This document shows, one piece after another, positions 4,028 to 20,666 of a DNA stretch of 25,816 nt. The notes under the pieces were generated by a model. That model ran no database searches and was not told the origin of the DNA. It worked only from the letters and a program-made list of their open reading frames with translations. Within the stretch, counting starts at the first letter, position 1, and each line of letters begins with the position of its first letter. The translations under genes were made by a program, and so were the position numbers. This DNA comes from a virus, in the IMG/VR virus record IMGVR_UViG_3300010885_054041, positions 1-25,816 of that record; one strand, given 5' to 3'.

Positions 4028-6091
4028 TTAAAAAGTAAAGTCAGCTCCATTAGAGTTTATTTTCTTCCATTCAGAAGAATTGCCTTCTGTCTTGGCACTT
4101 ATCTCTTTTTGTACAAACTCGTTTTTTAAGTGCCATGAATTTACTGCATCTACCGGATTCCCTCCTTCCTCAAGTCTTTCTAAAAACCCACATCCGCTTC
4201 TATACATTTCAAACTTTACTGGTGTATCTAAAGAGGTCGGCCTGCCGCCAGTTTCGGTATCTTTTATTTTCCTTACATGGACCTCGGTTATCATCCAGTC
4301 GGTTGGATGCTGGGTAATACGATGTATAGTTAAAAAATCATCAGTCTTATTTGCAACCTTTTGCCCACCTTCTGTGTCTGCCTTGTTTGGGGCGGCTTGG
4401 TATTTTTTATCTCCATCCTTAGTTCTAGCAGCAGCGGTTACTGCGTGATGGTTTACAAACCAACCAAAATTATTCTTCTGCCCAAACGCCTTTATTTCAC
4501 TTAGCGCTTCATAGTGATATTCATGTGTGCTTAATTTGCTAAATCCGCTTAAATCTATTTTTAAAGAGTTGTATGGATCAATCATTCCATAATTATACTT
4601 CTTAACTTTAAGCGTTTTTTTAACCATGTTTATAATATCCTTATAATTGTATAAATCTTCCTGCGCCTTAATCAATGAAAAATGATCCTCAACAAACCTC
4701 TTTGCTATCTGATATTCAGTTTCATTCATAGCAAACTTTCCGGTTAATGGCTTGCCCCAATAAAATTGTATCATCTTTCTCATAAAAGCCCCAAGGGTAT
4801 TTTCACTTGAAAAAATAATACCTTTCCAGCCATGATACATAGCCGCAAGTAAACATAGATACCAAGTAAAAACAGATTTACCGGTATTATCTATACCATT
4901 GGTCATTACCAAGTTCCCTTCCTTAAATAAAAAATGCTCGTCCAAGGAAGGGCATCCTGTAGTTAACCCCATTTTTAAAGTCCCATCTCTAACTGATTGC
5001 AGGTAATCATCGTAATCTTCTGGTTTTGCTAAAAAAGAATAATCATTATCTTCCACATCCACGCGAGATGTAATTACCCTTGTGCTTGGTTGTTCTTTTT
5101 TAACTTCTTCTCTATCCCCATATCCCATTTCGTAAAGCTTCTTGCTAGCTAAAGAAAAATCTTTATTGCACTCAAGAACAGCAAATACCGCGTATGGCAT
5201 ATACGCTTTCTCCGGCTCAAATTCACTACTGGTCGTAAATACACTAAACCACTTTTTAGCTTCATCGTAATTGCCAGAGCTTTGCGAAGATGCCTGTCCT
5301 GGCCTTAAAAAAATAACCTTATTTCCATGTCTTTTTATAAACTTCCAGCCATTGGATTGCAATAACCCTACAACATCTCCTCTGTTATTGTAATCCTCAA
5401 ATGGAGATAATCCTTTTAATTTTTTAGGAGCTTTAAAAGCCGGAACGTATTCCTCTACAGTTTCATTAAATTGCCTAGCTATTCCAATAAGAGTATCTCT
5501 TTCTTCTGGTGTTATTTCTGTTATGCTATATAGATCGCCATAAATAAACTCATATCCAAGCGATGGATAACATACTATCTGTCCACCCAGCCCCCTGGTT
5601 TCTATCAAAACCCTAACTTTGTCGTTCATCTTTGATTTCTGAGCTATTTTTTTAGCTTCAGAATCATCCTTCCCTTTTAGTACCTCCGCCTCGTATGTTT
5701 TTTGAAAAGTATCTTGTCTCTCATCCTCTGTAGTTGACCTATTAGCAAGCTTTGCATTTCCGCCAATGGTGGAGCTTCTATAAATAAAATGGTATCCGCC
5801 ATTTTTTGTTTTCTGAACTACAATCTTACTTAAAAGTTCATTATCAATTTCGTGAATCAATCTTTTATAATTATCAAAAAGCTTCCCATCTAAACTATAT
5901 TTTTGATCAATATCAATAACCTCTACATTACCGGATGGCTTTCCGCAAACCAATCCAACCGCAATACAATTGCTTAAATCATATTTTTGCGTAGAGTTTT
6001 GCCAATCTTTTACAAGCGGCTGTTTCATTGCATTTACCGGAATAAATTGCAATCCTTCTATTTCGTGTAATTCTTCACAATTCATAGCCAT
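4028..6091 (-). CDS. Primase-helicase (prim-pol domain fused to RecA-like helicase)
   Basis: This 687-aa protein probably unwinds the phage replication fork and makes primers. The N-terminal half matches bifunctional primase/polymerase (archaeo-eukaryotic type): VEVIDID at 57-62 supplies the metal-binding Asp pair, GGYHFIY around 98-104 the conserved His, and ETRGLGGQIVCYPS around 164-177 the third motif. The C-terminal half matches DnaB/RepA-like RecA ATPases: Walker A GIDNTGKS at about 399-406, a Walker B-like YGMIDPY, and FVNHHAVT in place of the sensor strand. Central residues 230-330 are a linker or zinc-less helical region. The start at 6091 overlaps the preceding gene by 17 bases; a second ATG lies two codons in. 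Phage origin-dependent loading may use the upstream winged-helix protein. Confidence 0.88.
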   Translation of the reverse strand: MAMNCEELHEIEGLQFIPVNAMKQPLVKDWQNSTQKYDLSNCIAVGLVCGKPSGNVEVIDIDQKYSLDGKLFDNYKRLIHEIDNELLSKIVVQKTKNGGYHFIYRSSTIGGNAKLANRSTTEDERQDTFQKTYEAEVLKGKDDSEAKKIAQKSKMNDKVRVLIETRGLGGQIVCYPSLGYEFIYGDLYSITEITPEERDTLIGIARQFNETVEEYVPAFKAPKKLKGLSPFEDYNNRGDVVGLLQSNGWKFIKRHGNKVIFLRPGQASSQSSGNYDEAKKWFSVFTTSSEFEPEKAYMPYAVFAVLECNKDFSLASKKLYEMGYGDREEVKKEQPSTRVITSRVDVEDNDYSFLAKPEDYDDYLQSVRDGTLKMGLTTGCPSLDEHFLFKEGNLVMTNGIDNTGKSVFTWYLCLLAAMYHGWKGIIFSSENTLGAFMRKMIQFYWGKPLTGKFAMNETEYQIAKRFVEDHFSLIKAQEDLYNYKDIINMVKKTLKVKKYNYGMIDPYNSLKIDLSGFSKLSTHEYHYEALSEIKAFGQKNNFGWFVNHHAVTAAARTKDGDKKYQAAPNKADTEGGQKVANKTDDFLTIHRITQHPTDWMITEVHVRKIKDTETGGRPTSLDTPVKFEMYRSGCGFLERLEEGGNPVDAVNSWHLKNEFVQKEISAKTEGNSSEWKKINSNGADFTF

Positions 6092-7983: not shown

Positions 7984-8136
7984 ATGAAAAAAAAGAAAAA
8001 CGAAATCGTTTTTGAAAGTAATGTAGTAAATAATTTTGCCAGGATTTATATACACCAAAGAAATTGGAAGTTATTAATGCCAATACCGTATTCGTGGAAA
8101 ATTGACATAAAAAAAATAAACGAATTAAAAAAGTAA
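7984..8136 (+). CDS. Small basic protein (50 aa)
   Basis: The ATG directly follows the stop of the winged-helix gene with no gap. The product begins MKKKKNEIVFES, contains RIYIHQRNWKLLMPIPYSW and ends with Lys-rich KKINELKK. High Lys content and aromatic residues suggest a nucleic-acid or protein partner, but no family is known to me. Zero-base spacing and a following conserved gene 16 bases later support a real gene. Confidence 0.5.
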   Translation: MKKKKNEIVFESNVVNNFARIYIHQRNWKLLMPIPYSWKIDIKKINELKK

Positions 8137-8152
8137 AAGTTATTTTTATGTA

Positions 8153-8380
8153 ATGGAATTAATGGTATCTGGATGTAAAGATTGTCCGCTTTGTAATATA
8201 GATTTTGGAATAAGTTATTTTTGTAATTATCCAAATTATGATGAAGAAGCGCTTATGATAGATATAGATGAAAACGAAGATCCAATAACGCCAGAGAAAT
8301 GTCCACTTAATACTTACCCAATTATAATAAAAAACAAAGAATGGCAAAAGCTTGAAATGTTTTGGAATAAAAGAAATTAA
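8153..8380 (+). CDS. Small Cys-rich, probably zinc-binding phage protein (75 aa)
   Basis: The sequence shows VSGCKDCPLCN near the start, then FCNYPN, and later ITPEKCPLN: five or six cysteines arranged as CxxCPxC...C...CPL. This spacing is typical of a short zinc-stabilised phage protein seen in many genomes, often next to replication genes; its role is not known. A second ATG lies three codons in (MVSGC) and could be the true start. It is the last gene before the terminator. Confidence 0.68.
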   Translation: MELMVSGCKDCPLCNIDFGISYFCNYPNYDEEALMIDIDENEDPITPEKCPLNTYPIIIKNKEWQKLEMFWNKRN

Positions 8381-8382
8381 AA

Positions 8383-8403
8383 AACCCACCTAATGGGTGG
8401 GTT
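8383..8403. terminator. Bidirectional intrinsic terminator
   Basis: An 8-bp perfect stem (AACCCACC / GGTGGGTT) with a 5-base loop lies between the convergent Cys-rich gene and the minus-strand gene. The minus-strand side continues into a run of T (TTTTTTAATTTC), a good U-tract; the plus-strand side has TTCTTAATTTTATT, a weaker one. It separates two opposing transcription units. Confidence 0.75.
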
Positions 8404-8424
8404 CTTAATTTTATTAGCGCCTAA

Positions 8425-8664
8425 TTAAAGGGCAATAATTTCCGCAACAGTCTTAACGCTGTAATAAACAGGTTGGATTGGAGAAGGCGCGGTTGGTAAT
8501 AATTGGATTTGAGATTTACAAGTAACACCAGAGTAAGCTACATTTGGTGATAAATCTCGTAAAACAACCTGCGTTGGAGAGAATCCCATAGATACTCCCA
8601 TTGCATTTTTCCAATCATTTTGATTTGCTCCGTAAATTGATACGGCAAACATTGCTTGTGCCAT
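8425..8664 (-). CDS. Lone minus-strand hypothetical protein (79 aa)
   Basis: A single minus-strand gene between the left (early) and the right (late) plus-strand blocks. The product has MAQAMFAVSIYGANQNDWKNAMGV, VVLRDLSPNVAYSGVTCKSQIQLLP and PIQPVYYSVKTVAEI: beta-rich, one Cys, no signal peptide or span. I recognise no family. It has its own terminator and needs its own promoter in the 72 bases upstream, where I cannot find a clean TTTG / TAnnTTTG pair. Isolated placement suggests independent control. Confidence 0.62.
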   Translation of the reverse strand: MAQAMFAVSIYGANQNDWKNAMGVSMGFSPTQVVLRDLSPNVAYSGVTCKSQIQLLPTAPSPIQPVYYSVKTVAEIIAL

Positions 8665-8736
8665 TTTTCTTTTTTTAGAATGAATGAATGATTTTAACTT
8701 GGTGAAATTAAATGTTTTTTGTAATAAAAATAAAAT

Positions 8737-9552
8737 ATGGGGAAAAATATATTAATAAAACACAGTTATAATGCCGGGGATTTGATTGTCTTAATGTCTG
8801 GGCTGCAAGAATTATATAAAAAACACAACAAAAAAGTAATAATTTACCAAGTTTTAGATTTTCCTGCATTTTATTATAATGGCGCTATTAGTCCAATAAT
8901 TAATAATGATGGGCAGCAAGTTTGTATGAATGAGGAGATGTATAAAAGGTTAAAACCATTAATTGAATATCAAGATTACATTGAATCTTTTGAAATTTAT
9001 AAAGGAGAAAAAGTAGATTTTGATGTTGATTTAACGAGAGACAGTAGAATGATTCCTATGCCTGCTGGATTAATACACCATTATGCTTTTTCTGTTTTCC
9101 CAGAAATGAGCTGCGATCTATCTGTAAAATGGATAAAAACACCAGATTACAATACCAATCCAATTGAAAAAATAATCATAAACAGAACACAGAGATACAC
9201 TAACGCATATATTGATTATTATTTCTTAAAAGACATTCAAGACAAATTTGTTTTTTTGGGAGCTAAATCCGAGCTTGAAGCAATCAATAAGCAGTTTAAT
9301 TTAAGCTTACAGTATTTAGATAGCATTGATTTTTTGCATTTGGCAACAATGATGAAATCTTATACAGGCGGAATATACAATCAAAGTTTTTTGTGGCATT
9401 TGGCTGATGCGATGAAGCTGCCGAGAATACTTGAATTATGCAATCAGTTTCCTAATACATTCCCTACCGGAGCTAATGGGTACGCTTTTTACAATCAAAA
9501 AGCACTTGAATATTATACAAACACAATGTTAAAAAATGATACACGAATTTAA
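8737..9552 (+). CDS. GT9-like glycosyltransferase (heptosyltransferase-type fold)
   Basis: A 271-aa protein with the GT-B opening of ADP-heptose:LPS heptosyltransferase-like enzymes: NILIKHSYNAGDLIVLMSGLQELY, where the N/G-x-GD-x-hhh loop follows the first strand, then KKVIIYQVLDFPAFYY. Later HLATMMKSYTGGIYNQSFLWHLADAMKLPRILEL corresponds to the sugar-nucleotide-binding end, but the usual DSGPLH motif is replaced by YNQSFLWHLA. It is shorter than typical GT9 (about 330 aa). It is the first gene of an overlapping sugar cassette. The donor and acceptor are unknown, and loss of activity cannot be ruled out given the altered motif. Confidence 0.68.
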   Translation: MGKNILIKHSYNAGDLIVLMSGLQELYKKHNKKVIIYQVLDFPAFYYNGAISPIINNDGQQVCMNEEMYKRLKPLIEYQDYIESFEIYKGEKVDFDVDLTRDSRMIPMPAGLIHHYAFSVFPEMSCDLSVKWIKTPDYNTNPIEKIIINRTQRYTNAYIDYYFLKDIQDKFVFLGAKSELEAINKQFNLSLQYLDSIDFLHLATMMKSYTGGIYNQSFLWHLADAMKLPRILELCNQFPNTFPTGANGYAFYNQKALEYYTNTMLKNDTRI

Positions 9553-9748
9553 TTACCCAGTGCCATGCACTACTCCTTTGGGGGATGGATATATTTGGTA
9601 TGTAAAACCAAACGGTTTTTTAGAAAATGACGAAGTAACAGTAATTCTGTGTGATGGCGGAAATATAAAACATTTTACAACCGACCAAATTAAAATATGG
9701 CACAACGGAACGTATAAAATAAAAAAAATAAAAAATGATAAGCATTAA
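9536..9748 (+). CDS. Small SH3-like phage protein (70 aa)
   Basis: The gene overlaps both neighbours (17 and 14 bases), so it is translated with the cassette. The product, beginning MIHEFNYPVPCTTPLGDGY and continuing DEVTVILCDGGNIKHFTTDQI, has five or six short beta strands like an SH3-type barrel. I recall similar small proteins with P.PCTTPLGDGY in other Bacteroidota phages, but not their function. It may bind a partner enzyme of the cassette; that is inference. Confidence 0.62.
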   Translation: MIHEFNYPVPCTTPLGDGYIWYVKPNGFLENDEVTVILCDGGNIKHFTTDQIKIWHNGTYKIKKIKNDKH

Positions 9749-11168
9749 AAACGTAGAGCTTTGTTTAATTGATTGTTATAATTATGGGGCAGCAGCTGCT
9801 TCTTTGCAAAAAAGCATGAAGCAATGCAAGTTTGGCAAAGTAAAGTTTTTTACCGATATAGATATAGATATAGAGGGGGTAGAGGTAATACAAATAGATT
9901 CATTAAAATCTAAGGATGATTATTCTAACTTTGTAATTAAAGAACTATATAAGCATATAGAATTAGATTATGTTCTTATAACCCAGCATGATGCTTGGGT
10001 ATTAGACGCAGGCGCTTGGAGTGAAGAATTTTTAAATTATGATTACATAGGAAGCCCTTGGTTATATACAGATGGGCGAAATGTTGGGAATGGAGGATTT
10101 TCTTTGCGATCAAAATTATTGCAAAATATTTTAGGGCATGATTTAGAAATAGAAATAACATCTCCGGAAGATGAAATTATTGGCAGATTATACAGAACCT
10201 ATTTAGAGAAAAAATACGGAATGAAATTTCCATCAGATAGCGTGGCTGATACTTTTTCTTTTGAGTTGCGAGAGCCAAAAAACAATACGTTTGGATTTCA
10301 TTCTTATTTCCATAAACCATATAACCCCACAGTTATAATTAAAAGGACAGCCGCCTTAGGGGACGTATTGCTTACCGAACCGGTAGCTAAATATTATTTT
10401 AATAAGGGGTATAATGTGGTATTAGATATACCGAGCGATATGTACGAAATGTTTAGTAATCATTATTTCCCAATTAAGCATATATCACAATTTGATTTTG
10501 GAAGAATTACGCCAAAAAAAATAGTCAACCTAGATTTAGCTTATGAAGCAAAGCCTAAGCAAAACAGATTGAAAAGTTATTTTGAGTTTTCCGGTATAAA
10601 AGATTATGAACTTACGCGCCCAATTTTGTTTCCTTTGGTGGATGAAAAGACAAAGCTTTTTAAAAAATATGCAGTTATTCATATAGATCAAAAAAACATA
10701 CCACACAGAAATATATATGGAGTAAATTGGAAGGCAATTAAAAAGCATTTGGAAGCTTATGGATATGTTGTTATCCAAATAGGAAAAGAGTTTCATGAAT
10801 CAATAGGAATTGAAATGAATACACCTTCAATTGGTTTTCTTAAATTTGTAATTGCTGGATGCGATTTATTTTTAGGCATTGATAGTGGGCCATTAAATAT
10901 TGCTATGGCTTATAATAAACCATGTGTTGGTTTTTTTGGAAGCGTAAATCCGGAATATGTTTATCCGAATACAAAAGGATTAGAAGTTATTCAACAACCA
11001 TGCATATATCAGCATTGCTATCATTCTGAATTTTCTGTAACGGGGGTTTCGTGTGTATTTAACGCTGATGTACCCCCCTGTTGCATAGCAGAAACAGAGC
11101 AAGTGATAGATGCAATTAATAATTTGCACATAAATATAAATAAGGAAAATGGCAGTAGAATCGCATAA
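9735..11168 (+). CDS. Bifunctional glycosyltransferase: DUF5672 domain fused to GT9 domain
   Basis: Two sugar-transfer domains share one 477-aa chain. Residues about 5-190 resemble DUF5672: DYVLITQHDAWVLD, EEFLNYDYIGSPW, NVGNGGFSLRS. Residues about 198-460 are a GT9 domain: VIIKRTAALGDVLLTEPVAKYY (loop with GD), NRLKSYFEFSGI, and DSGPLNIAMAYNKPCVGFFGS (residues 383-403), the nucleotide-sugar site. A Cys-rich end (C423, C428, C440, C449, C450) may bind zinc or form a stable lid. It overlaps the genes on both sides. It could add two sugars in sequence. Substrates are unknown. Confidence 0.82.
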   Translation: MISIKNVELCLIDCYNYGAAAASLQKSMKQCKFGKVKFFTDIDIDIEGVEVIQIDSLKSKDDYSNFVIKELYKHIELDYVLITQHDAWVLDAGAWSEEFLNYDYIGSPWLYTDGRNVGNGGFSLRSKLLQNILGHDLEIEITSPEDEIIGRLYRTYLEKKYGMKFPSDSVADTFSFELREPKNNTFGFHSYFHKPYNPTVIIKRTAALGDVLLTEPVAKYYFNKGYNVVLDIPSDMYEMFSNHYFPIKHISQFDFGRITPKKIVNLDLAYEAKPKQNRLKSYFEFSGIKDYELTRPILFPLVDEKTKLFKKYAVIHIDQKNIPHRNIYGVNWKAIKKHLEAYGYVVIQIGKEFHESIGIEMNTPSIGFLKFVIAGCDLFLGIDSGPLNIAMAYNKPCVGFFGSVNPEYVYPNTKGLEVIQQPCIYQHCYHSEFSVTGVSCVFNADVPPCCIAETEQVIDAINNLHININKENGSRIA

Positions 11169-11670
11169 GATACTTGAAAAAATAAATAAATATTTAAACG
11201 GAAGTGTTATTGAAATTGGATGCGGAGATGCAACAATTATAGATGGCGCTTTTGGAATTGATGGAAGAAGCTTTCCATGTGTAAATTACTTAACAAGCAA
11301 TTTATATGATTTACCAAAGCAAATTCCAGATAAAATAAATTCGTTTGATTGTTGTTTTAGTTCTCATGTTTTAGAGCATTTGCCAGATGCCTATAAGGCA
11401 ATAGACGAATGGTCAATGTTTTTAAAGCAAAACGGATACCTTATACTTTATTTGCCAGATGGAGAACATTATGACAATTACGAAAATAGAGAACACTTTC
11501 ACGATACCACGCATAAGCAATTTGTCTTTTGGTTTAAAAGGGCGTTTTGTGGAGAAGCGTTGAATTTTAAAGGAGAGCAATATCAACAACCAAAATTTAA
11601 TTTAATAGAAAGCGGGCTAGACATTGGAGATAATAGATATTCTTTTTATTTAGTTGCGCAAAAAATATAA
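11149..11670 (+). CDS. Class I SAM-dependent methyltransferase
   Basis: A 173-aa protein with the SAM-binding motif I VIEIGCGDATI at about residues 20-30, an acidic strand-end region, and FDCCFSSHVLEHLPDAYKAIDEW, the post-motif II pattern of Methyltransf_11-like enzymes, followed by NGYLILYLPDGE. The short length leaves no room for a DNA-recognition domain, so a small molecule or sugar acceptor is more likely. It starts 20 bases inside the fused glycosyltransferase and ends 3 bases before the next glycosyltransferase. It probably methylates a sugar or lipid made by the cassette. Confidence 0.8.
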   Translation: MAVESHKILEKINKYLNGSVIEIGCGDATIIDGAFGIDGRSFPCVNYLTSNLYDLPKQIPDKINSFDCCFSSHVLEHLPDAYKAIDEWSMFLKQNGYLILYLPDGEHYDNYENREHFHDTTHKQFVFWFKRAFCGEALNFKGEQYQQPKFNLIESGLDIGDNRYSFYLVAQKI

Positions 11671-11673
11671 ACA

Positions 11674-12444
11674 ATGAGCAATACGTTAGGCGGCAGCATT
11701 TTTGTAAGAAACGGAGTAAAATATGATTATTGTTTTAAGGAAAGCATTTTATCGTTACTTGAATTTTGCGATAAAGTAAGCTGTGTGGTTGTTGAAGGTG
11801 AAGATGAGACAGAAGAAATAGTTAGGCAACTTGAGTCCGAAAACAAAAGATTAATGGTAACTTATTTGCCAAAATCAGAATGGGAAAACCAGCAAGGCAA
11901 AGCCCAAAGCAAGCTTTGTTATTTTACAGACATAGCCATTTCTAAGCTAGATACCGACTATAATTTTTATCAACAAGCGGATGAAATAATGCACGAAAAA
12001 TGCTATAGCAAAATAAGGGAGGTAATTAAAACGGCAGAACCTGCGTATTTTTGCAGCAGAATTAATTTATGGAAAAGCCCTTATTTGCAATTAGATGTTC
12101 CGCAAAACAGGAAGCCATGCTCATCTGAAATAATAAGGTTAGCTAAAACGGAATATAGGTCTTATGGGGATGCAGAAAGTTTAGCTGTGCCTACTGCTGA
12201 TTATTCTTGCGTTAATGATATTCGTATGTATCACATGGGTTTTGTTAGAAAAAGAGAGGTAATGAAGGCAAAAGTTATAAACATGCAAGAGGGCGTTTTT
12301 GAAATGGCAAATCATGATATTAAATTAGATGGCAGTGATATTTTTCAACCAGAGCTGTGGTTTGATGATAATGATTTGAAATTAATAGATGAGCCATTGC
12401 CATTGCTTATCCAAGATTGGGCAAAAAAAAGAATTTATAAATAA
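11674..12444 (+). CDS. GT2-like glycosyltransferase
   Basis: A 256-aa protein with features of GT-A family 2-like enzymes seen in phages: an N-terminal strand region with GGSIFVRNGVKYDYCFKESILSLLEFCDKVSCVVVEGEDET, and FYQQADEIMHEKCYSKI, where QADE takes the place of the metal- and donor-binding DxD. The end has TADYSCVNDIRMYHMGFVRKREVM, with a His in the usual acceptor/base zone. Last gene of the sugar cassette; spacing of 3 bases to the methyltransferase. Donor unknown. Family assignment is from motif pattern. Confidence 0.72.
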   Translation: MSNTLGGSIFVRNGVKYDYCFKESILSLLEFCDKVSCVVVEGEDETEEIVRQLESENKRLMVTYLPKSEWENQQGKAQSKLCYFTDIAISKLDTDYNFYQQADEIMHEKCYSKIREVIKTAEPAYFCSRINLWKSPYLQLDVPQNRKPCSSEIIRLAKTEYRSYGDAESLAVPTADYSCVNDIRMYHMGFVRKREVMKAKVINMQEGVFEMANHDIKLDGSDIFQPELWFDDNDLKLIDEPLPLLIQDWAKKRIYK

Positions 12445-12454
12445 ACACAAAAAC

Positions 12455-13258
12455 ATGAACAAAAAACATTTTGTATTAATTGAAGATCAAAAAGTCAGTA
12501 AAAAAGATATTGAACTTATTGAAAAAGAAAGACAAGCTAAATTAAAAGCTCATTCAAAAAGGATATTAGCCCTAAATAAAGAAAAGCTAAAAAAGCCGGT
12601 TTACATAAAGCATCCAGAAGGTAGGGTAGTAATATCAATAGACTTAGAAGCGAAAAATTCTCATACATTTAGCAGTGGAGAAAAGATATATATTGGCAGG
12701 CAGTTTAATAACCTTAACCGCAGGGAAACAGAACCAGTTAATGCTTATGTGATATCTGCTAGCGATATACCTTACGGATCGGAAATATTAATACATCCAA
12801 ATGCGATAAACGATTCCAATAAAATATTTAATTTTAACGAAAACATCTCCGATGTTAAATATTATTCTATACCAGAAAATCAATGTTACTTTTGGAAAAC
12901 AGCAGACGATTGGCAGCCATTGAAGGGATTTGTAACTGGGCTGCGCGTGTTTGAAGAATACAGGGGGGCGCTAGTTGGTGTAAATCATACGCAAATAAAA
13001 AATGTTTTGTATATTACATCCGGCCATCTAAGAGGAAAAGTAGTACACACTCTTAAAGCTTGTGATTACGAAATGATATTTATGGGTAGCAACGGAGTAG
13101 AGCAAAGGGTTATACGGTGCAGGCATTTTGAAAATGAAATAAATGAAAGAGAGGAAATAATAGCCGTTGATGAATATTTGACCAAAAGAATAGTTGGGGA
13201 AGATTTATTGGTTGGGATTTCTTCTTCTGATGCAAAAAGTATTATTTTTACATTATAA
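12455..13258 (+). CDS. Conserved phage protein, possibly GroES-like (267 aa)
   Basis: The frame extends upstream into the glycosyltransferase, but ATG at 12455 with an A-rich leader gives a natural start MNKKHFVLIEDQKVSKKDIE. Residues 1-50 are a charged helical region; then comes a beta-rich domain with GEKIYIGRQFNNLNRRETEP and SDIPYGSEILIHPNAIND, which loosely resembles a GroES-like barrel; and an end with VLYITSGHLRGKVVHTLKACDYEMIF. In related phages similar proteins lie just before the packaging genes. A co-chaperonin role in capsid folding is possible but unproved. Confidence 0.62.
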   Translation: MNKKHFVLIEDQKVSKKDIELIEKERQAKLKAHSKRILALNKEKLKKPVYIKHPEGRVVISIDLEAKNSHTFSSGEKIYIGRQFNNLNRRETEPVNAYVISASDIPYGSEILIHPNAINDSNKIFNFNENISDVKYYSIPENQCYFWKTADDWQPLKGFVTGLRVFEEYRGALVGVNHTQIKNVLYITSGHLRGKVVHTLKACDYEMIFMGSNGVEQRVIRCRHFENEINEREEIIAVDEYLTKRIVGEDLLVGISSSDAKSIIFTL

Positions 13259-13277: not shown

Positions 13278-13955
13278 ATGTCAAAAGCAAAAAGGACAAT
13301 AGTAGATGCTAAGCAATCTAAATTACAACCGATTCCAAATTCTGGAAAAGACATCTCAACAAACAGTACAAAAACAAGTGTAGAACCAAGACCCGTACCG
13401 CCAGGAGAAGATTTATCTGGCTATTGGGGAAGAAGCGCTGGGGACACAGTGGAAGGGAAGCACGCTCAATTAAGAGCGCTGGGATTTAATGACAGAAATT
13501 CATTTATGAATCAATCTGTTGCTGAACCATTAAACGAATCGGCGTTTTCAAAACAGGCAGCAGAGAAAAAAAAGGGAAGTCCATTAAATGTAGAAGCATC
13601 AACCGGATGGTCGGAATCTGCAAAGCTTCAGACTTTGTCAATGCTTGACGATATGTATAGATCAGCAGATAAGATGGGATACAAGACTGCGGATCAATTT
13701 AGAACAGCATACGAAAACCTAAAAAATTCTAGCCCAAGAACAAAAGCGCTAAGCACCGATCCAAAATGGATTGCTGCAACACAAAGCGGAGGCGCGGATT
13801 TGAAAAACGTAGCAGCTGAACACTTTGCCAGATTAGTTAGAGGGAGAGACGAGGAACGTGCTAAAGCAGCTCCAGCAGCAGCTCCAGCAGCAGCTCCAGC
13901 AGCAGCTTCGGCAACGCCAGCGTCAAAAGTAATGCTAAAGGTTAATAAAGCTTAG
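13278..13955 (+). CDS. Hypothetical virion- or packaging-associated protein (225 aa)
   Basis: A basic, disordered N-terminal part (Ser, Lys, Pro-rich up to about residue 45), a helical middle (GWSESAKLQTLSMLDDMYRS, YKTADQFRTAYENLK), and an Ala-Pro tail of PAAA units (about residues 197-212) before a short basic end. No known family. Position before the terminase genes suggests a role in packaging or the capsid interior. The Ala-Pro tail is encoded by a 12-base tandem repeat and is probably a flexible linker that varies among relatives. Confidence 0.58.
   Translation: MSKAKRTIVDAKQSKLQPIPNSGKDISTNSTKTSVEPRPVPPGEDLSGYWGRSAGDTVEGKHAQLRALGFNDRNSFMNQSVAEPLNESAFSKQAAEKKKGSPLNVEASTGWSESAKLQTLSMLDDMYRSADKMGYKTADQFRTAYENLKNSSPRTKALSTDPKWIAATQSGGADLKNVAAEHFARLVRGRDEERAKAAPAAAPAAAPAAASATPASKVMLKVNKA
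13866..13907 (+). repeat. 12-base tandem repeat (3.5 copies)
   Basis: The unit GCAGCTCCAGCA is repeated three times without error, followed by a partial fourth. It encodes AAPA units inside the preceding gene's product and is prone to change in copy number by slippage. Confidence 0.9.
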
Positions 13956-13967
13956 ATAGTAGCAAAT

Positions 13968-14312
13968 ATGATTCAAAATATAGACGACCTCAATAAGAGG
14001 TTGGACCTTTATGAACAAAACGGTCCAGCCAAACTATACTATTCCCTTAATAGAAAAGCCAATGAAATGGCTGATTTATTAAATAGCAAAAGCTTAAACA
14101 GCTTAGATTTGGGAGATCCAAAAGATAAAACATTTGAAAGAATGAAAATCATTTGGAATGACGCATCAAGCATTACAACAGCTATAACTGGGTTGGCGAT
14201 GGCAATAGGCATTACTGGAGATGAGGATAAGGACGTTAAGAGGAATCAGATAATTACCACCCCGGAAAGCATAGCGAATCAATTAGGAGACAATAAAGCA
14301 CAAGATGTATAA
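13968..14312 (+). CDS. Possible small terminase subunit or packaging accessory (114 aa)
   Basis: The product is helical (DLNKRLDLYEQNGPAKLYYSLNRKANEMADLLN), has a hydrophobic helix TTAITGLAMAIGIT, and ends in a polar tail. It overlaps the large terminase start by 8 bases, the usual site of a small terminase. There is no clear helix-turn-helix, so the terminase role is only positional. Confidence 0.5.
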   Translation: MIQNIDDLNKRLDLYEQNGPAKLYYSLNRKANEMADLLNSKSLNSLDLGDPKDKTFERMKIIWNDASSITTAITGLAMAIGITGDEDKDVKRNQIITTPESIANQLGDNKAQDV

Positions 14313-16380
14313 TTTAATAGAAGGGTGTACTCCCATAGACATTCAAGGATTAGTATGTAACATACCCAAAGAAGGGTATGTTTTTAATTTAGCGACTAAA
14401 AAAACTGAATACAGGGGCATTCATAAAAGATCAAGTGATCCCAAGGAGCAATATTGGGAAAGGACACCGTTGCCCGGATGGTACAAGGATGTTATAAAAA
14501 AAGAGGACGCGTATGAGAAAAAAAGAAAAGAAGATGATGCCGCTTTTTATGACGATCAATTAGAAAAATATAAGCAACAAGAATGGGATAGAAGGTTGAA
14601 TGGTTTTTGGTTTATGAACAATGGAAAACCAACGTACATAACCGGATCTCATTACATGTACATGCAATGGTTTCAGATTGACATTGGGTATCCAAGATTT
14701 CGTCAGCCAGATTTAGAATATTTTTATTTTTTAAAGTATGTGGAGGAAGATCCAGATTGTATGGGAATGTTGGAGATTACAAAGCGCCGATTTGGTAAAA
14801 CATACCGAGGCGGATTGTTTTTGTATGATTATATAACCAGAACAAGAATGACAAACGGGGGTATCCAGTCTAAGACAGGCGCGGATGCTAAAAAAGTTTT
14901 TGCAAAAGCGGTAATATCTCCATTTAAAAAACTGCCTAGATTTTTTAGACCGGAATACGATATGAGCTTAGGGGTTACTCCTAAATCGGAAATTAGATTC
15001 CAGCAAACAAACGTAAGGGGGAAGAAGGCAGAAGATAATATAGATAAAGAGGAGCTTGGCTCAATGATTGATTTTCAAAGTGCCGACACCATTGCTTATG
15101 ATGGACAAAAGATACACAGATATTTTTCTGATGAGTGGGCGAAAACAACAGAGGTAAATATATATGATAGGCACGAGGTTATTCGTTATTGCCTATTAGA
15201 TGATGAAGGCAAAATTATTGGAAAGGCGCTATATAGTAGTACGGTTGAGAAGCTTGATACCGAGCGAGATGGAATTCAAGATTCCGCAAAAAGCCTTTGG
15301 AATGATAGCGACCAGTTAAATAGACAAGCAAACGGAAGAACTGCAAGTGGGTTATATAGATTTTTCATGACCGCAGACAGGGCAAAGAATTTTGATTTGC
15401 ATGGATTTCCAGACGTAGAAAAAACGATAAAAGAAATACTTGCAGATAGGGACACAGTCAAGCACAATACGAGGTCGCTATCTAAAAGGATTAAAAAAGA
15501 AGCCCGGACAATTGAAGAAGCATTTAGTGATGATGGGGATGATTGCATTTTTAACTCTCAAAATATAAATGCGCAATTAGCATATCTTAGGCAGACACCA
15601 GTTTCAAGATTTAGACACCTTCATTTTTATAGAGACATAGATACGCAGAAAGTTAAATGGAGAGATGTTGATCCAAACAAAACAGATTTGTACTGGAAGG
15701 TTATTGTCCTTCCGCCTAATGGAGAAGATAATAAATATAAAATGGTAGCCAATGTGAGGCAGCCAACAAGGGCGGGGATTGGGGTTATCGGCGTAGATGG
15801 ATATTCAAATACACAGGGCGGAAAAGAGTATGGATCAAAGCTTTCTGGATGGTATTTTATAAAGTACGATATAACAGATCCAGAAAATACAGGCGTTTTT
15901 GGTGGACATATTTATGGCAGACCAAATGAAAAAGACGATATGTATAACCAAATATTGCTTTGTTCAGAATATATGAGCTTCCCAACTTATTTTGAATTTG
16001 TATCAGATGATTATTATACTTATTTTAAAAACAGGGGAAGGGTTGGTTATTTAGGGAGATTTCCTAAAAACTCAATAGATCCAATAAGACTTAAAAAAGA
16101 CAAAGTAGATAGGCATTTTGGATTCCCAACAACCGAATTTGCTTTGACAAAACAAAACGATATAATGACAACGTATATTGAGCATCACTGCGAAAAAATA
16201 TATTATGAGGAGTTGCTTGAGGATCTTTTAAAATTTCGGCCATACAAAAGAACGCCATCGGATAGAACGGTAAGCGCGATGATCACACTTGTTTCCGGAT
16301 TAGAGCCAATTCCTGTTCATCAAACACCCCGAACGCCATTGATAAAAGTATTTCAAAATAGTAAATCTATAATAATGTAG
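14305..16380 (+). CDS. terL: Terminase large subunit
   Basis: This motor-nuclease packages DNA into the capsid. The 691-aa protein has an N-terminal adaptor region, then the ATPase: a Walker A of TerL type, TKRRFGKT (about residues 159-166), a Walker B IHRYFSDEW with Asp276-Glu277, and a coupling motif KALYSSTVEK. The C-terminal part has the RNase H-like nuclease, with GVIGVDGYS (Asp499) as the first metal ligand and further Asp residues around EFVSDDYY and SDRTVSAM. Insertions make it larger than the typical 450-600 aa, as in large-TerL podoviruses. The stop is followed by a 160-base gap containing a hairpin before the portal gene. Confidence 0.93.
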   Translation: MYNLIEGCTPIDIQGLVCNIPKEGYVFNLATKKTEYRGIHKRSSDPKEQYWERTPLPGWYKDVIKKEDAYEKKRKEDDAAFYDDQLEKYKQQEWDRRLNGFWFMNNGKPTYITGSHYMYMQWFQIDIGYPRFRQPDLEYFYFLKYVEEDPDCMGMLEITKRRFGKTYRGGLFLYDYITRTRMTNGGIQSKTGADAKKVFAKAVISPFKKLPRFFRPEYDMSLGVTPKSEIRFQQTNVRGKKAEDNIDKEELGSMIDFQSADTIAYDGQKIHRYFSDEWAKTTEVNIYDRHEVIRYCLLDDEGKIIGKALYSSTVEKLDTERDGIQDSAKSLWNDSDQLNRQANGRTASGLYRFFMTADRAKNFDLHGFPDVEKTIKEILADRDTVKHNTRSLSKRIKKEARTIEEAFSDDGDDCIFNSQNINAQLAYLRQTPVSRFRHLHFYRDIDTQKVKWRDVDPNKTDLYWKVIVLPPNGEDNKYKMVANVRQPTRAGIGVIGVDGYSNTQGGKEYGSKLSGWYFIKYDITDPENTGVFGGHIYGRPNEKDDMYNQILLCSEYMSFPTYFEFVSDDYYTYFKNRGRVGYLGRFPKNSIDPIRLKKDKVDRHFGFPTTEFALTKQNDIMTTYIEHHCEKIYYEELLEDLLKFRPYKRTPSDRTVSAMITLVSGLEPIPVHQTPRTPLIKVFQNSKSIIM

Positions 16381-19918: not shown

Positions 19919-19938
19919 TAAAATAAAATAAAATAAAA
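19919..19938 (+). repeat. TAAAA tandem repeat in the leader of the paralog pair
   Basis: Four copies of the pentamer TAAAA run directly into the ATG of the next gene. It serves as an A-rich, unstructured leader, the Bacteroidota alternative to a Shine-Dalgarno sequence, and can vary by slippage. Confidence 0.75.
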
Positions 19939-20288
19939 TGTTAGCACAATATTTAGATTTAACCGACCAGTTTAATAGTAATCCAGATTACGAAGTAGTA
20001 ATTGATGTAAGCAATTATGACTATTGTTTAATTCAGCCAATCGGAGAAGATGTTAATCTTTTTTCAACAATAGATAGCGGAGCAGTGCAAGGCGTTACAG
20101 ATGGAAATGCAACAACTGCTACTAATTTTGTATCGGTTGCAGCACTGGAATTAGCGAATGGTACTAGCTACGGTGCAAGTGTAACAGATGGCACAATAAG
20201 TAGACTAGCTGTAGTGGGGCGCTATGTTAAAATAAAAAAAGGAAGTCCGATTACAAAACTATTAGTAATGTTAACTAAAATATCATAA
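19938..20288 (+). CDS. Virion-associated protein, first of a tandem paralog pair (116 aa)
   Basis: The product starts MLAQYLDLTDQFNSN and ends LLVMLTKIS; middle strands DYEVVIDVSNYDYCLIQP and STIDSGAVQGVTDGNA suggest a compact beta-fold like a capsid decoration or head-fibre subunit. It is 3 bases before a paralog with the same start, middle motif and end. The 29 first and 28 last bases of the two genes are identical. Role is inferred only from location before the scaffold and capsid genes. Confidence 0.68.
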   Translation: MLAQYLDLTDQFNSNPDYEVVIDVSNYDYCLIQPIGEDVNLFSTIDSGAVQGVTDGNATTATNFVSVAALELANGTSYGASVTDGTISRLAVVGRYVKIKKGSPITKLLVMLTKIS

Positions 20289-20291
20289 ACA

Positions 20292-20666
20292 ATGTTAGCA
20301 CAATATTTAGATTTAACCGAAGAATTTGCAAATAGCTTTGATGGAAGTGTCTATAAAGTACAATTTGAAGTGAGCAATTATGATTATGCATTAGTTCAAT
20401 TTGTGGATTTTTTATCAGAAGTAAATTTTAAGTCAACAATAGATAGCGGGGCTGTACAAGGAGTTACAGATGGGAATGCTTTGACATCTACTAATTATAC
20501 TACAGTATATGCTACATATTTATTGGACAATACTAAAGTAACAGTTAGTCCAAGCAATGGGACTTATAGATTTGATGTAGTGGGAAGATATATCAAGCTA
20601 ACAAATGCAAGCGGTATTAATCTTACAACTGGAAAATTATTAGTAATGTTAACTAAAATATCATAA
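20292..20666 (+). CDS. Virion-associated protein, second of a tandem paralog pair (124 aa)
   Basis: The paralog of the gene before it: same MLAQYLDLT start, FEVSNYDYALVQF, STIDSGAVQGVTDGNA and LLVMLTKIS end, with the intervening loops changed and a few residues longer. The pattern points to duplication followed by divergence of surface loops. Both may assemble together, or replace each other at equivalent sites. The next gene begins one base after its stop. Confidence 0.68.
   Translation: MLAQYLDLTEEFANSFDGSVYKVQFEVSNYDYALVQFVDFLSEVNFKSTIDSGAVQGVTDGNALTSTNYTTVYATYLLDNTKVTVSPSNGTYRFDVVGRYIKLTNASGINLTTGKLLVMLTKIS

Follow-up and report, generated by a model that had tools for sequence, protein, structure and literature searches.

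What do five co-oriented genes lying just ahead of the packaging genes of a phage make, and to what is their product attached? A sequence-only reading of the window, that is, the whole stretch of 25,816 nucleotides analysed here, had proposed that these genes (8737-12444) form a sugar cassette able to build and cap a short sugar chain, and had favoured the virion over host envelope glycans or phage DNA as the target. The phage probably has a Flavobacteria-like host. The features discussed below, with gene labels A to F, are as follows.

8383-8406, minus strand: terminator-like hairpin of the intrinsic type, between the upstream genes and m79 (fold z = -3.55)
8425-8664, minus strand: m79, a conserved small gene of 79 aa, divergent from the cassette
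8665-8736, no strand: spacer between the divergent m79 and A, where the cassette/late transcription unit probably starts
8737-9552, plus strand: A, glycosyltransferase-like protein with a predicted GT9 fold (GT-B), 271 aa
9536-9748, plus strand: B, small protein of 70 aa without family match, probably a passenger
9735-11168, plus strand: C, two-domain enzyme (DUF5672 + GT9), from profile matches and conservation
11149-11670, plus strand: D, class I SAM methyltransferase that here occupies a variable slot
11674-12444, plus strand: E, GT2/GT-A family glycosyltransferase, 256 aa
12455-13258, plus strand: F, first gene 3' of the cassette, probably a GroES-like co-chaperonin for head assembly
13278-16380, plus strand: two small genes and TerL (phrog_6681, 5e-69), contiguous with the cassette

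Rechecking the open reading frames returned the same coordinates and strands for the five genes, with overlaps of 17, 14 and 20 bases and a 3-base gap. From F through TerL, all genes lie on the strand of the cassette and no intergenic gap exceeds 19 nt, the spacings from F to the two small genes and on to TerL being 19, 12 and -8 nt. In the window, the cassette is thus predicted to form the 5' part of a terminase/capsid (packaging/head) transcription unit. The terminator-like hairpin marks the left boundary of this unit; a G+C-rich hairpin was present at the equivalent place in 19 out of 19 relatives examined, with differing sequence. The divergent intergenic region was 47-108 nt long in most relatives and 237 nt in two. 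We claim no promoter, because consensus sigma-70 promoters were at chance level (46 found against 46.1 expected) and the single match to the Bacteroidetes-type promoter motif in positions 8000-10000 fell within a gene. In at least 20 contigs, m79 was a direct neighbour of A or C, and it travelled with A; its window protein had no match in Pfam or PHROG. The window also has a DNA methyltransferase gene, at its left end.

On the 3' side, the true start of F is probably 12455 rather than 12389, judging from its homologues: the start at 12389, which would overlap E, was dropped since the F proteins of relatives begin near M23 (12455). F aligned with the gene preceding TerL in elemo, Panino and ctfjg026 (hhalign probability 81, P = 1.2e-5), a gene annotated as co-chaperonin GroES in two of the three, and in one relative (L020) GroEL and GroES sit between E and F. 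F is thus a probable GroES-like co-chaperonin for head assembly, outside the glycan pathway.

The count of four glycosyltransferase-like domains and one methyltransferase proved correct, through profiles for C and D and through fold or family for A and E. Both domains of the DUF5672-GT9 fusion in C scored above the Pfam cut-off: DUF5672 (PF18922) at 2.6e-19 over aa 51-189, nt 9885-10301 (69.9 bits, cut-off 24.4), and Glyco_transf_9 at 1.9e-7 over about nt 10326-11129 (31.1 bits, cut-off 22). The second half of C combines this Pfam match with the D-[ST]-G motif of GT9 enzymes, as GIDSG at aa 381-385, of which GIDS was invariant in 9 relatives and GIDSG kept in 8 of the 9; C also matched 1psw in a PDB sequence search (E = 0.008). 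D matched Methyltransf_11 at 3.3e-9 (37.7 bits, gathering score 21.2) and bears an EIGCGD motif, which bears out its call as a SAM methyltransferase.

For A, the GT9-like call was upheld by fold. The window protein had no significant match in Pfam or PHROG, and 0 of 26 family members matched any Pfam profile, Glyco_transf_9 included, so we name A GT9-like and do not file it as GT9. Its AlphaFold model (pLDDT 92.8) had 3tov, 1psw, WaaC and TibC as top Foldseek matches in the PDB, WaaF being matched as well, and A is predicted from this model to adopt a GT9-type GT-B fold. The N-terminal Gly14-Asp15 was invariant among the 26 members. The GT9 donor-site motif D-[ST]-G-x-x-H was not kept: the D-[ST]-G position reads N215-Q-S, and Q216 and E233 are invariant in its place. 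Because of this N-Q-S, the sugar donor or activity of A must be regarded as uncertain. A viral-contig search with the single A sequence returned no relatives; an alignment-based search recovered them. The E window protein by itself had no significant family profile match. Among its 52 family members, 30 matched PF00535 (Glycos_transf_2) and 30 matched PF13704, and D44 and D103, a DxD-type acidic motif, were invariant; the model of E (pLDDT 66 overall) matched GT-A enzymes, mainly through its N-terminal half, in agreement with the GT2-like assignment. Searches of PDB sequences with A and with E gave nothing useful. Donor motifs were thus kept in C and E; in A the motif is altered. No membrane segment was predicted in the cassette proteins (highest 19-residue hydropathy mean 1.62, in C), and neither a GtrA flippase nor membrane-anchored glycosyltransferases of the Gtr serotype-conversion type were found among them. 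PADLOC returned no defence-system match for A, C and E and a weak partial match for D.

At least 26 contigs of related phages carry the set. Among 27 contigs carrying C, E lay alongside in 26 and A in 23. With C and E together in all but one of the 27, the set is more than a chance assembly: it is real and selected, and it recurs as a co-oriented block. Two of its five genes fared otherwise. B matched no family in Pfam or PHROG, its description as SH3-like was unsupported by any search run, and distant relatives carry it elsewhere (L016, L017, L028, L029, L031 and L032), often beside a NinG-like gene, or may lack it near the cassette. We rejected B as a pathway member, since it is not linked to the other cassette genes in distant relatives. 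D, taken earlier for a fixed part, is instead one of many occupants of a variable slot: the gap between C and E was filled in 24 of 27 contigs by differing methyltransferases and/or glycosyltransferases, including GT17, GT2, Methyltransf_24/23 or CmcI-like genes, and genes related to D were seen in L080 and L088. The cassette proposal therefore stands for a co-oriented, glycan-building set that recurs as a block, without B as a member and without D as a constant.

Unrelated high-GC siphovirus contigs suggested how the slot relates to its neighbours. In L058, a single GT2-GT9-Methyltransf_11 protein directly precedes E, and in L054 a GT2-GT9 protein does. Because of these arrangements, C, D and E are predicted to act in one pathway, and DUF5672 appears to hold a glycosyltransferase position. 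Elsewhere, DUF5672 was fused to GT41 (Nostoc) and to Methyltransf_24, and bacterial DUF5672 genes lay in part near GT2, CTP_transf_3, Wzy_C and epimerase genes. DUF5672 thereby gains a likely function, from its fusions to GT9, GT41 and a methyltransferase and from the GT2-GT9 proteins that replace DUF5672-GT9 in other phages.

As for location, packaging genes followed the block on its 3' side in 23 of the 27 contigs, among them a lineage whose TerL and portal are 22-24% identical. In the unrelated siphovirus contigs (L054, L058 and L061) the block comes directly after tape measure/tail genes. Such comparisons indicate that the block moved between phage lineages with terminases only 22-24% identical; between some lineages, C and E were better conserved than portal and terminase.

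Our best explanation, with a probability of about 0.6, is a glycan-assembly cassette forming the 5' part of the packaging/head unit, whose most likely acceptor is one or more virion proteins. The link to the virion rests on the shared strand, the gaps of at most 19 nt up to TerL and the terminator at the left boundary, and on the recurrent position ahead of packaging genes or by tail genes. Soluble enzymes in the host cytoplasm would use nucleotide sugars presumably supplied by the host; A, both halves of C, then E would transfer sugars successively, perhaps in that order; and the slot enzyme or enzymes, here D, would cap or branch the chain. With at least one phage virion protein as the probable acceptor, particles would leave the cell bearing a short methyl-capped glycan. 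Recombination would refill the slot, such that the caps would differ among related phages while the core stays similar.

Virion decoration was thus favoured by position, which is circumstantial evidence, by the soluble enzymes and by the Corndog precedent (see below); however, three relatives have the block elsewhere than next to packaging genes. In L019 and L026 it lies amid genes without any recognised virion gene, and in L033 it precedes a primase-helicase. We counted these placements against the virion reading, together with the terminator-like hairpin that splits C-E from A-TerL in L016/L017 and with the cultured Flavobacteriia phages with related terminases, which have no block beside TerL, so that virions of this sort can generally do without it. 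Also counted were the altered donor motif of A, the lack of donor-synthesis genes (Epimerase, NTP_transferase) in 20 records, and the fact that LPS at the inner membrane face is another possible substrate for GT9 and GT2 enzymes.

This last point leads to another possibility, namely that the target is a glycan of the host surface, remodelled late in infection: at the inner membrane face, the soluble enzymes would add sugars and a methyl cap to the LPS/LOS core or to some other lipid-linked glycan, which would keep progeny off debris or exclude superinfecting phages. WaaC and WaaF, among the matched structures, act on LPS, part of the bacterial DUF5672 genes lie near polysaccharide genes, and the block does not always adjoin virion genes. 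Yet Gtr-type serotype conversion relies on membrane proteins, and the cassette lacks a flippase, acyltransferase or membrane glycosyltransferase; with its late placement alongside packaging genes, and tail or head genes adjoining it in unrelated lineages, we hold this remodelling to be unlikely. That the enzymes glycosylate a host protein during infection, such as adhesins or defence proteins, seems very improbable: TibC, a GT9 match of A, glycosylates an autotransporter, and Nostoc has a DUF5672-GT41 fusion, but the position with packaging genes speaks against it and nothing specific speaks for it.

We give equally little credit to glycosylation of phage DNA, with hypermodified bases as an anti-restriction shield. 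Virus-encoded DNA glycosyltransferases exist and are diverse, as cited in PMC12619734, and the window does carry a DNA methyltransferase gene. Against this, no thymidylate synthase/hydroxymethylase-type gene was found in 22 relatives, 8 of them >60 kb, in a search whose controls were positive in 9 genomes; the block mostly sits with the packaging genes and not with those for replication, and the folds are of the sugar-on-glycan/protein type. Finally, the genes could be cargo (morons) gathered in a permissive insertion site without a common pathway, as the variable slot, the mobility of the block and the unlinked B might suggest. The linkage of C and E in 26 of 27 contigs, the same domain set fused in unrelated phages and the stronger conservation of C and E relative to portal and terminase between some lineages make this a far-fetched explanation.

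A bolder form of the virion reading, which we offer tentatively, is a modular locus wherein the conserved core A, C and E is exchanged as a block among distant phage lineages, the hypervariable methyltransferase/glycosyltransferase slot changes the cap in the manner of antigenic or receptor-mask variation, DUF5672 is an unrecognised glycosyltransferase domain, and m79, moving with A, may be an acceptor or partner. To our knowledge, glycosylated virions have been documented for only a small number of phages, mostly those of mycobacteria. If our reading is true, glycan-coated virions would be common in another, uncultured phage group, and the diversity of slot occupants in nature would make selection on the cap testable (adsorption, protists, host defence).

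How does the locus compare with known systems? A and the second half of C share the fold of the GT9 heptosyltransferases WaaC, WaaF and TibC, with GIDSG in C and Gly-Asp in A; they differ in being phage-encoded and in the N-Q-S of A at the D-[ST]-G place. In chlorovirus PBCV-1, A064R (GT-GT-methyltransferase) and A061L cap the glycan of the major capsid protein (PMC9614988). There too, virus-encoded glycosyltransferase domains are joined with methyltransferases, but the virus is eukaryotic, the glycan N-linked, the glycosyltransferase families are others and the genes do not lie in a head operon. The closer parallel is with the Corndog group (cluster O; Corndog gp35-gp38), compared here through Firecracker, Catdawg and Dylan in place of Corndog. 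These phages carry an O-methyltransferase and three glycosyltransferases between portal and capsid protease, for which capsid modification was proposed in 2015 (PMC4351075); later literature reports glycosylated virion proteins for Corndog, Che8 and Myrna (PMC12363180). The Catdawg glycosyltransferases had no clear homology to A, C or E (in a profile comparison among four sequences, no E-value was better than 0.06), the families here being GT9, DUF5672 and GT2. The present cassette also differs in lying before TerL and in its variable C-E slot. Both loci consist of overlapping contiguous genes, with three glycosyltransferases and a SAM methyltransferase within a packaging/capsid unit. Like the Corndog kind of locus, the present one has several glycosyltransferases and a methyltransferase contiguous with virion genes. 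By this analogy, and without homology between the glycosyltransferases, the anatomy of the cassette matches that of the Corndog virion-operon cassette.

The window, a 25,816-base IMG/VR fragment of a tailed phage, encodes a terminase that shares 25-29% identity with its counterparts in Flavobacterium and Maribacter phages, from which we infer a Bacteroidota host. The layout described by the sequence-only reading, five genes (A to E) with overlaps of 17, 14 and 20 bases and a 3-base gap, was exact. From A (8737) to the terminase gene TerL (14305), neighbouring plus-strand genes were separated by at most 19 nt, taking the start of F, the first gene 3' of the cassette, at 12455, its probable position.

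The unit and its left boundary (domains from Pfam profile search)
8383-8406, terminator hairpin (fold z = -3.55), left boundary
8425-8664, minus strand, divergent 79-aa gene m79, left boundary
8737-9552, plus strand, gene A
9536-9748, plus strand, gene B
9735-11168, plus strand, gene C, DUF5672 (2.6e-19) then GT9 (1.9e-7)
11149-11670, plus strand, gene D, Methyltransf_11 (3.3e-9)
11674-12444, plus strand, gene E
12389-13258, plus strand, ORF F

A G+C-rich hairpin, differing in sequence, occupied the matching place in 19/19 relatives examined. The product of m79, whose own terminator is the 8383-8406 hairpin, is 15% Ser+Thr and matched no known family; in at least 20 contigs its gene is a neighbour of A or C, and it travels with A. 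Elsewhere, the window carries a partial DNA methyltransferase gene (2-643; phrog_67, 1.3e-44; type II by PADLOC models) and encodes a 127-aa protein whose DNA-binding domain is of the response-regulator type, unusual for a phage (797-1180; Trans_reg_C 3.6e-13).

Relatives were gathered by searching viral contigs with C, E, an A alignment and an E alignment, followed by profile mapping. The block recurred: among 27 contigs carrying C, the window counted, E was present in 26 (absent from L088) and A in 23 (missing from L018, L021, L023 and L025). The usual order was A-(B)-C-slot-E-F-TerL, the slot being the variably filled gap between C and E; A and m79 followed E in L016, L017, L028, L029, L031, L032 and L087, and B was located elsewhere in the first six of these. 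At least one methyltransferase or glycosyltransferase (GT) filled the slot in 24 of the 27. We consider, with a probability of about 0.93, that the cassette is a real, conserved and exchangeable unit for glycan assembly.

Fillings of the slot
D-like genes: window, L080, L088
Methyltransferase-like family of about 170-200 aa, without Pfam match: many contigs
Methyltransf_24 or O-methyltransferase genes: group L028, L029, L031, L032
GT17 fused to Methyltransf_24: L003
GT17 + CmcI-like + GT2: L019, L020, L026, L027, L086
Empty: L016, L017, L033

A matched no Pfam family, either alone or via its 26 family members. The best PDB matches of its predicted model (pLDDT 92.8) were the GT9 enzymes 3tov, WaaF, WaaC and TibC (E 3e-7 and worse), and Gly14-Asp15 was kept in all 26 members. 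Because N-Q-S stands in place of the D-[ST]-G motif, its GT activity is uncertain. In the E family, Glycos_transf_2 was matched by 30 of 52 members, and D44 and D103 were invariant. The E model was of moderate quality (pLDDT 66, N-terminal half good) and matched GT-A enzymes, e.g. SunS/ThuS, LARGE1 and heparosan synthase. Family searches gave no match for B.

Two high-GC siphovirus contigs carried fused versions: in L058, a single 725-aa GT2-GT9-Methyltransf_11 protein, with E directly next, and in L054, a GT2-GT9 protein, then E. The GT9 part in L058 matched C (7.7e-20) and its methyltransferase part D (2.8e-14), in the same order, and in both proteins GT2 stands in the place of DUF5672, which is elsewhere fused to GT41 (Nostoc) or Methyltransf_24 (phage L006). 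These fusions link C, D and E within a single pathway, and they make DUF5672 a likely GT domain. In 80 bacterial loci it was chiefly the DUF5672 half that was matched, and no adjoining GT9 half was found.

Compared with L020/L027, C and E of the window were 48-51% identical, TerL and portal merely 22-24%, and TerL/portal order was reversed. Identity to L010 was 91% for E, 74% for C, 34% for A and 33% for TerL. Among close relatives (TerL 83-86% identical), E was 57-58% identical in L002 and L015 and 82-89% in L003, L004 and L005. Such contrasts indicate that the cassette core has been exchanged, both whole and in part.

Other modules also varied. TerL of L010, L018, L023 and L088 was 33-38% identical to that of the window, yet portal reached 50-62%, pointing to terminase replacement inside this group. 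The close relatives L002 and L015 have their primase-helicase module on the plus strand, whereas that of the window (4028-6091) is on the minus strand: the replication module is inverted. Between portal and scaffold (19938-20666) lies a tandem pair of paralogous small proteins, which differ among relatives in sequence and copy number (two in L005, one in L002). G003, the 58,702-base contig behind L005, has terminal 20 bases that are exact reverse complements, either an inverted terminal repeat or an assembly artefact, and also codes for a 3655-aa protein.

As to what is modified, virion decoration, favoured by the sequence-only reading, is the most likely role, and we hold it with moderate confidence. 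Packaging genes lay downstream of the block in 23 of the 27 contigs (L030 is cut; L019, L026 and L033 show none). F resembles the GroES-like gene preceding TerL in cultured Flavobacteriia phages, and in L020 the stretch from E to the portal gene contains GroEL, GroES and F. Counterparts of C-E come after a tail module with a tape measure protein in three unrelated contigs, L054, L058 and L061. The cassette enzymes also look soluble. Phage DNA would be another target, but a thymidylate synthase-type gene was found in 0/22 relatives. Host LPS, modified at the inner membrane face, is a possible target. No Epimerase or NTP_transferase family gene for own donor synthesis was found in 20 records.

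Phages of the Corndog group likewise carry a GT/methyltransferase set of this kind, in the virion operon, and Corndog virions were reported to be glycosylated (PMC12363180). Their GTs show no clear homology to those of the window; the two cassettes are alike in anatomy, not by descent. What is new relative to the Corndog cassette is the enzyme set, the phage group and the variable slot.
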